Source: Austropuccinia psidii (Eukaryota > Basidiomycota > Pucciniomycetes > Pucciniales > Sphaerophragmiaceae). From it: DNA of 64,000 nucleotides. The stretch spans positions 45,165,967-45,229,966 of the forward strand of contig JALGQZ010000009.1 in the NCBI GenBank assembly GCA_023105745.1, given 5' to 3'. Under the pieces are notes generated by a model. The model worked only from the letters and a program-made list of their open reading frames with translations, had not been told where the DNA came from and did no database searches. Shown in pieces: positions 12,971 through 13,882 of this stretch; within the stretch, counting starts at the first letter, position 1; every line of letters begins with the position of its first letter. Position numbers and translations under genes: made by a program.

Positions 12971-13882
12971 TGTCTGACAACGTGGTAAGACAAGAAAACA
13001 TTGAAACAGCCTCAACAGTAACCAGCATTATCCCTGCCAGTACTGTCAATTCTGATCATAATAGCACTGTTATTGTGACTCAAAATAACCATCCTGAACC
13101 AATATCTTCTGAATTAATTAACTTGGACATAAGTAATACCCTTCAGAAAGCTAAAAATTTGGCCAATAGTAAGTTTTTTGACGTAAAAATACTATTTTAA
13201 GCCTTTTTAACCATAATTATGCCTTCAACCAGATCAGGAGCCAGCTACAACCCCTCAAGCAGCTCCCAAAAAGGTAATAGACGTGATTATGGCAGAGGCC
13301 AACCAGGTACAGAAGGAAAAGGGTCAGTTGATGACTTCCAAACAACTAAAATGGGTCATTCTGAAGCTGAGAATACCATTTTACCTTCAAAAAGAGCTGA
13401 CACCGCCACAAGAAGCCTCAGTGGACATATACAAAGCCAGCCACAAAGCTTACAACAATGCACTGCAGTACAAGGAGTACCAGATCCTGGCAGATCTGTG
13501 GAAAAACTGCATGAATTCTTACCTGACAGTAAGGAAATTCTTGGGCCATCCCAACACTTGCAAATTGCTCAATGGATGGCATCCATTGATGGAGAAGAAA
13601 AACATGATGCTTTTGACACTAGAATGGAGGAAAAACAACCCTCCACCACCCAAACCAGTGCCAAAAACAGCCCCAGTGGCCAGCAGCAGCAATTCCAACG
13701 TGAAAAAGCAGCCACAAACTCCAAACAAGGGCAAAGGCAAGGCACCAGCCCCAAAACCTTACAGCCAGGGCTACAGAATCCCAAAGATTCAGCAGGATGC
13801 CATGGAAAATGTATTTCAGATGGCCAGAACCATGATGGAATTACAGAAGAAGGAGGAAGCCAGATTAAGGTTCCAGAAATGA
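12971..13882 (+). CDS. Element A ORF1: spliced protein overlapping gag in the +1 frame
   Basis: Proposed exons 12971-13168 and 13233-13882. The first is Ser/Thr/Asn-rich and ends at donor ata|GTAAGT. The second begins after acceptor caaccag at 13232. The one-base exon phase joins the two in frame, giving about 282 residues if the start is the splice-made ATG. Exon 2 reads VIDVIMAEANQVQKEKGQL, LKWVILKLRIPFYLQK, VDIYKASHKAYNNALQYKE, WKNCMNSYLTVRKFLGH and LLNGWHPL, then a Pro/Lys-rich linker and IPKIQQDAMENVFQMARTMM. The same pattern occurs in this frame in C, D, E and F. It overlaps Gag by about 650 bases. Function is unknown; the basic, helix-forming composition could suit a nucleic-acid-binding or matrix role. 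Splicing is inferred, but the open frame and its cross-family likeness are seen directly. Confidence 0.6.

Follow-up and report, generated by a model that had tools for sequence, protein, structure and literature searches.

A probable spliced gene overprinted on the start of gag-pol in Ty3/gypsy retrotransposons of Austropuccinia psidii

Why would a retrotransposon keep a second reading frame open over the start of its own polyprotein gene? We met this question in a 64-kb stretch, positions 45165967 to 45229966 of contig JALGQZ010000009.1, of the 1.015-Gb assembly of the myrtle rust fungus Austropuccinia psidii. This stretch, here called the window, holds nested long terminal repeat (LTR) elements that are revealed by self-comparison and are lettered A to E. 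Our element B is the element F of the original prediction, an earlier note on this DNA; the letters A, C, D, and E are the same in both. Element A is a Ty3/gypsy LTR retrotransposon, with paired LTRs and one polyprotein in which reverse transcriptase, RNase H, and integrase follow in that order. Our answer, to which we give a probability of about three in four, is that the second frame belongs to open reading frame 1 (ORF1), a real protein-coding gene of this A. psidii Ty3/gypsy group that extends across the leader and the first ~500 to 700 nucleotides (nt) of gag-pol and becomes accessible through splicing. Coordinates are collected in Table 1.

Conservation of the +1 frame over gag

In element A, the +1 frame is open from 13217 to 13882, with 221 codons up to the stop, and overlaps the 5' part of gag-pol, whose own frame is open from stop to stop between 13201 and 18786. 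The +1 frames of D (37117 to 37611, minus strand) and E (43940 to 44692, plus strand) have 165 and 251 open codons. Both frames are thus open over the overlap in these three elements, as the original prediction had said, and the +1 peptides that it quoted from A, D, and our B are present. A tblastn search of the window with exon 3 of A found D (E value of 1e-28), C (5e-24), and B (3e-21), and the gag frame of the same A/D stretch gave a weaker match (4e-14). Two of these copies are decayed: ORF1 of C has an in-frame stop in its tail (26671 to 26673) and has lost its acceptor, and that of B is frame-broken and contains stops. The +1 product of E matched only itself in a tblastn search of the window, and hhalign against the A/D profile (probability of 0.4%, E value of 0.15) did not support sequence kinship. 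The idea of similar proteins in five elements therefore holds for A, B, C, and D and is unsupported for E at the level of sequence. ORF1 of E is equivalent to those of A and D in place, frame, and splice layout, and kinship with A to D is possible, judging from a GWxP motif, the order of the helices, and the layout.

Which of the two frames is constrained? In a recoding test, the gag amino acids of one element were kept and the synonymous codons redrawn, with 500 draws per ordered pair. None of these draws attained the observed +1 score in 10 ordered pairs of A, B, C, and D, all but B-C (z of 7.3 to 16.9). Pairs with E gave +1 z values of 3.5 and 2.9 with A and of 0.9 and 1.1 with D, and gag z values of 2.7 to 5.0. 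When A and D were compared in 80-codon segments, the +1 frame beat gag in the four segments starting at gag codons 40 to 160 (+1/gag scores of 86/34, 81/36, 119/91, and 147/121). Gag was ahead in every segment from codon 200 on, and codons 0 to 80 were undecided (gag 35, +1 33).

Elements C and D are ~88% alike, and their differences can be read by codon position. In exon 3, 21, 9, and 5 differences fall on gag positions 1, 2, and 3 (of ~154 each), compared with 50, 42, and 175 (of ~1023 each) in the remainder of gag-pol that was compared; for position 3, Fisher's test gives p = 5e-7. The exon 3 counts stayed the same after CpG sites were dropped. The changed codons of exon 3 are 15 synonymous and 16 not in the +1 frame and 4 synonymous and 27 not in the gag frame. 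In exon 1, changes at the three ORF1 codon positions number 4, 3, and 15 (of 50 each).

The same turnover is found within families. Copies were collected from the window and 200 kb adjoining it (stretches L011 to L030), which added one copy for A, four for D (one split over two stretches), two for B, and five for E, used as six pieces. Here, the overlap means exon 3, or the last exon in the case of E. At gag positions 1, 2, and 3 of the overlap, A has 12, 2, and 2 variable columns; D has 41, 17, and 19; B has 28, 14, and 17; and E has 35, 28, and 20. The downstream gag gave 5, 1, and 5; 38, 33, and 87; 36, 78, and 46 (the B reference being frame-broken); and 53, 38, and 69, in the same order. 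Totals for the four families are 116, 61, and 58 in the overlap versus 132, 150, and 207 downstream (position 3, p = 5e-9), or 88, 47, and 41 versus 96, 72, and 161 when B is left out (p = 5e-8). A third position in the +1 codon corresponds to gag position 1, and the pattern of exon 3 is thus that of a coding exon in the +1 frame. Exon 1, counted by its own codon positions, has 25, 40, and 73 variable columns in the four families (p = 2e-7) and 20, 27, and 65 without B (p = 4e-9); the counts are 0, 0, and 3 in A; 10, 8, and 20 in D; and 10, 19, and 42 (of 100 each) in E.

These substitution patterns indicate that selection acts on ORF1, both between families (recoding, segments, and the C/D pair) and within them, which is the constraint that the original prediction had named as its test. 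It had also asked whether nucleotide conservation of Gag could account for the likeness. Since the +1 frame is better conserved than gag over the overlap, its constraint is no by-product of Gag conservation. Dual coding, in turn, holds insofar as both frames are open and the +1 frame is constrained; the Gag frame evolves loosely in the overlap and is not an equal partner. Codon usage, tried as a means of dating the two frames, was uninformative, with the +1 frame lowest in all seven rows of overlap and downstream gag, whether coding or not.

Proposed splice layout and start codon

When the leaders of the elements are read side by side, ORF1 emerges as a non-continuous frame, and the DNA fits a spliced gene. 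Positions 12971 to 13882 of element A had been presented as a single frame. This does not hold, as the frame from 12971 stops at a TAA (13198 to 13200) and splicing would be needed to reach 13233. The proposed gene at the start of gag thus stands in altered form, split by introns and with a start that is probably made by splicing upstream of gag.

Exon 1 begins with TG after an AG acceptor in A, B, D, and E (the acceptor is lost in C), and the start codon would therefore be made by splicing (A/TG; a slash marks a junction throughout). The exon ends in phase 1 in A, D, and E; the donor of C (GTGTTT) aligns with that of D without gaps, and the donor of B (GTGTGT) is out of phase. Intron b comes next and contains the gag ATG; counted from the first base of this ATG, 14 nt of the intron remain in A, B, C, and D, and 20 nt remain in E. 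The donor that follows exon 2 is GTCAGT in A, GCAAGT in D and C, and GTCTGT in B, and exon 3 starts at the same aligned residue after phase-1 introns (A, ELTPPQEASVDIY; B, GLNHFQVAAIEIY; D, GTNHIQRAQIDIC). Intron c holds in-frame stops in B, C, and D, which splicing would remove; the model for E has no intron c. In a hand tally over copies and references, the junction letters at these homologous places are conserved: AG/TG at the exon 1 acceptor in 14 of 15, GT at donor 1 in 16 of 16, the gag ATG in 16 of 16, AG at acceptor 2 in 16 of 16, GT or GC at donor 2 in 11 of 11, and AG at acceptor 3 in 11 of 11. Candidate leader donors are TTATAA/GTGAGG in A, TTATAA/GTAAGT in E (43092), and CTTTGA/GTGACT in C and D; B has GTTACT at that place.

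At donor 2 (37659 to 37664 in D), the sequence GCAAGT is shared by D, C, L016, L019, and one of the L030 copies, and the other L030 copy (2303 to 4240) has GTAAGT. This difference is a natural exchange of a GC and a GT donor.

Gene models made by others contain several of the proposed junctions. Searches of public proteins with the +1 frames of A, D, and E returned 583, 831, and 902 matches. All 360 entries among the matches listed (the best 120 of each search) are from A. psidii, and those of the A set are named "hypothetical protein O181_..." of strain MF-1. Among the best 120 of the 583 A-type models, 31 contain exon 1, and 22 of these 31 join it to exon 2 at the proposed junction (N/NQE, by pattern count). 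Another feature of these models is where they begin: 12 of the 31, all named "partial," start directly after the split start codon. The spliced intron c junction is found in at least 14 of the 120 listed A-type models. In the E search, 39 of the best 120 of 902 models include part of exon 1, and a loose K/ET junction pattern fits 35 of the 120.

The leaders are poor in ATGs. Between the LTR end and the gag ATG, 0 are present in A (6.3 expected from dinucleotide-shuffled sequence), 1 in D (8.7), 2 in C (9.2), 1 in E (13.3), and 3 in B (7.4). As few ATGs occurred in 3.6% of 500 shuffles for B and in none for A, C, D, and E. This scarcity suits scanning to gag on unspliced RNA. A block of the leader is conserved in D (38331 to 38538), C (25446 to 25654), and B (3927 to 4110), in which an ATG opens a short frame. 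C and D diverge by 6.3% in this block and by 14.4% in the intron after it, and in D the short frame would continue through the proposed donor as far as exon 1.

The predicted ORF1 protein, its possible role, and competing explanations

The predicted ORF1 products of A, D, and E have 258, 254, and 333 amino acids (aa). They are basic, as had been foreseen, with isoelectric points of 9.5 to 10.0 in A, D, and C and 8.9 in E. The exon 3 products taken by themselves have isoelectric points of 9.9 to 10.0 (8.9 in E). Hydrophobic residues make up 0.26 to 0.31 of the exon 3 products, compared with 0.17 to 0.22 of the gag product of the same DNA. A structure model of 221 residues of the A product consists of helices, including a C-terminal helix at residues 190 to 220 (mean predicted local distance difference test score [pLDDT] of 72.1; predicted template modeling score of 0.41). 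The E model is poor (mean pLDDT of 51.3); it has a similar order of helices, with GWxP just before a long helix.

ORF1 has no convincing kin in Pfam, NCBIfam, PDB sequences, PDB folds, or viral folds, in agreement with the earlier description of the +1 protein as undescribed. Pfam searches with the A, D, and E products of the window and the models P0001, P0047, and P0087 gave matches below the cut-off or none (best E value of 0.031), and NCBIfam gave no match to the A, D, and E products. Over all members, Pfam matches were weak and scattered, the best E values, each reached by a single member, being 0.0004 among 104 A/D-type and 0.0029 among 56 E-type members. The most widespread were DUF4535 (14 of 104 A/D-type members, E value of 0.0024) and DUF4726 (9 of 56 E-type members, E value of 0.013). 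A short likeness to a splicing-factor domain (SF3a60-binding) occurs in 9 of 104 members, with a best E value of 0.019; the match in D itself (0.031 over 11 residues) lies below the cut-off. PDB sequences gave 0 matches up to an E value of 10, and fold searches gave none at an E value of 0.001 or less (best of 0.53 in PDB and 0.2 among viral folds). No relative was found in viral contigs, and Rfam returned nothing at its gathering threshold. Among the papers listed in searches of open-licence literature, no title or abstract beginning describes ORF1, which does not imply its absence from print in general. The available portions of three A. psidii and rust genome papers (PMC8063080, PMC12774611, PMC12210899) do not mention it.

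How might one element make both products? Unspliced genomic RNA, with few or no AUGs ahead of the gag AUG, would yield Gag-Pol and could serve as genome. In spliced RNA, the leader exon would join exon 1 and so make A/UG, and removal of the next intron, with the gag AUG inside it, would let the ribosome read ORF1 in the +1 frame over gag. As the gag-start intron would be kept for Gag-Pol and removed for ORF1, splicing would switch the product of each RNA. Elements with such introns would have to export their unspliced RNA from the nucleus.

Rev and like regulators of complex retroviruses are small, basic proteins made from spliced RNA that overlaps other genes. We found no link of sequence or fold between ORF1 and Rev, and ORF1 lies at the 5' end, over gag. 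Plant Ogre/Tat elements of the Ty3/gypsy type, which resemble the present ones in this respect, have an extra open reading frame upstream of gag; we know of no overlap of that frame with gag in another frame and of no start at a splice junction. The closest precedent is Cer1, a Gypsy/Ty3-related element of C. elegans. According to the available portion of its report, unspliced Cer1 RNA yields Gag-Pol, a spliced five-exon RNA yields CERV, and CERV gets the unspliced RNA out of the nucleus (PMC10309623). CERV is described there as a novel protein unlike known retroviral proteins. The likeness to ORF1 is one of layout and was not drawn from sequence comparison: a Ty3/gypsy-related element with a coding exon outside the gag frame, which is exon 4 in CERV and which ORF1 also has. 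The two differ in that CERV uses the gag/polyprotein frame in exons 1 to 3 and 5 and derives its C-terminal half from an open reading frame after pol, whereas ORF1 is in the +1 frame over gag, with a proposed splice-made AUG upstream of gag. ORF1 would also be shorter (254 to 333 aa predicted, versus 517). In the Ty1/copia element EVADE of Arabidopsis, splicing likewise separates two products of one element; as far as the available text goes, its spliced shGAG RNA makes Gag, whereas splicing of ORF1 would make another protein and remove the start of gag (PMC8892269).

Because ORF1 is small, basic, and of predicted spliced origin, we propose a CERV-like role. By this analogy, the basic helical protein may bind the RNA of its own element and aid either its unspliced export or its escape from splicing, a suggestion that we consider tentative. 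On the same speculative footing, these elements may be "complex" retrotransposons, in which a splice switch, a splice-made start, and an overprinted product acting on its own RNA form a Rev/CERV-like circuit in fungi, in families that take up much of a 1-Gb genome.

Several points weigh against the gene and role proposed here. The null of the recoding test treats synonymous sites as saturated, and its z values are therefore too high. In the reverse test, gag too exceeded its null (z of 2.5 to 7.7 among A, B, C, and D and of 13.5 to 14.7 for the close pair C/D). The counts within families assume independence of sites and take no account of the tree. Exon 1 of B, whose reference is frame-broken, has no third-position excess (5, 13, and 8); exon 2 lacks a clear +1 pattern (13, 9, and 9 by gag position in A, B, and D pooled, of 117 each); and intron c has too few changes in the same pool (9, 3, and 8 of 67). 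All junctions rest on DNA sequence, homology, and the gene models of others, and the leader donor, guessed from local likeness, is the weakest of them. The putative leader exon contains one or two ATGs in B, C, and D. In A, intron c is open and a multiple of three long, and its retention would therefore also yield a protein. The RNA-binding role, finally, rests on charge and on a model with a mean pLDDT of 72.

Could ORF1 instead be a second, matrix- or capsid-like Gag product, made in abundance from a subgenomic RNA in the manner of the spliced Gag RNAs of plant copia elements, and no regulator at all? Ty1/copia elements do produce excess Gag from short spliced RNAs, as described in the available text of PMC8892269, and ORF1 is basic and predicted to be helical. 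However, ORF1 lies in a frame other than gag, Gag-Pol keeps a zinc knuckle-like stretch of its own (with a score below the cut-off), and ORF1 has no Gag-like Pfam or fold match. We regard this explanation as rather unlikely, if the strongest of the competitors. An improbable one is that the +1 protein is real and reached without splicing, either because ribosomes that start at gag shift by +1 or because leaky scanning brings them to an internal AUG. The models P0018, P0145, and P0179 do fuse the gag N terminus to the +1 frame, and an internal M before QYKQYY is the first residue of many D-group models among those listed. Yet the fusion points differ among the three models, and no in-frame ATG at one aligned place is common to A, B, and D, as judged by eye. 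Coding constraint also acts on exon 1 in its own frame, upstream of gag, and the stops in intron c of B, C, and D would block +1 reading begun before them, though not a shift after them. It is very hard to maintain that chance, base composition, or the conservation of Gag produced the +1 likeness: both frames are somewhat conserved, as the A/D gag-frame match and the gag recoding values attest, but +1 conservation exceeds that of gag only in the overlap, where the codon-position pattern turns over in four families.

The splice model predicts exact junctions that are testable with existing RNA data, such as the in planta RNA-seq reported in PMC8063080 and PMC12774611. If common A. psidii elements do carry an extra overprinted regulator, it would explain many of the "hypothetical proteins" listed publicly for this species and would be an independent fungal parallel of CERV and of retroviral Rev. 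The A. psidii genome is among the largest of fungi and consists mostly of Gypsy DNA, with more than 90% covered by transposable elements, according to the available part of PMC8063080; an extra overprinted regulator in common elements would bear on how these elements filled it.

Elements in the window

The end of the 5' LTR of A, at ~12747, was placed by a match with a lone LTR (48993 to 50834). In the A polyprotein, Pfam matches above the cut-off are RVT_1 (residues 1050 to 1206), RT_RNaseH (1295 to 1402), Integrase_H2C2 (1526 to 1584), and rve (1600 to 1700).

Table 1. Positions in the window of element A and of the proposed ORF1 exons and introns in elements A to E
Feature	Position	Strand	Remarks
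A 5' LTR	10908..12747	+	10908-12745 vs 19166-20993: 99.18% identity, 1838 columns
A 3' LTR	19166..20993	+	pair of 5' LTR
A gag-pol from ATG, 1855 codons	13219..18786	+	reverse transcriptase, RNase H, integrase above Pfam cut-offs
A putative leader exon 0, post-LTR part	12748..12893	+	ends TTATAA/GTGAGG; would give A of start codon
A ORF1 exon 1	12971..13168	+	acceptor TTTCAG/TGTCTGAC, donor AATA/GTAAGT
A intron b, phase 1	13169..13232	+	contains gag-pol ATG, 13219-13221
A ORF1 exon 2	13233..13322	+	codon-position pattern undecided
A intron c, 72 nt, phase 1	13323..13394	+	open if retained in A
A ORF1 exon 3 and stop	13395..13882	+	predicted helical domain, conserved and containing GWxP; basic tail; C-terminal helix
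D ORF1 exon 1	37882..38031	-	acceptor TTTTAG/TGTTTG, donor GAAG/GTGAGC
D ORF1 exon 2	37665..37793	-	gag ATG at 37807, in preceding intron
D intron c, 66 nt	37599..37664	-	GCAAGT donor; three in-frame stops
D ORF1 exon 3 with stop	37114..37598	-	homology, codon-position pattern
E ORF1 exon 1	43627..43926	+	acceptor GATTTCAG/TGGTAG, donor AAAG/GTAAAT
E intron b	43927..43994	+	gag ATG at 43975
E ORF1 last exon, stop after 232 complete codons	43995..44695	+	+1 to gag
C ORF1 exon 3, decayed	26333..26793	+	in-frame stop 26671-26673; tblastn, recoding test
B ORF1 exon 3, decayed	2781..3345	-	stops, frame break; tblastn

The LTRs of D (29864 to 31890 and 38539 to 40565) are 99.5% identical over 2027 columns, and D is therefore a young insertion. 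It apparently lies inside a C-type element, whose pol seemingly resumes at 40566. The lone A-family LTR, on the opposite strand and 96.7% identical to 10908 to 12747, seemingly interrupts an E-type element, with pol-like sequence of the latter continuing at ~50837. The motif TTTGGGGGCCyrGCCGTG, a likely primer-binding site, stands at the LTR end in A, C, D, and E (12747 to 12765, 38515 to 38541, and 43047 to 43065). An open frame of 251 codons runs antisense to ORF1 and gag of A (13569 to 14324, minus strand).

The stretches L001 to L008, found by a reverse transcriptase search, had no match to the pol regions of the window. In the 264 kb formed by the window and L011 to L030, all on one chromosome, 17 whole or partial 5' ends with ORF1 sequence occur, from four families; if this density is typical, the genome would hold tens of thousands of such 5' ends.
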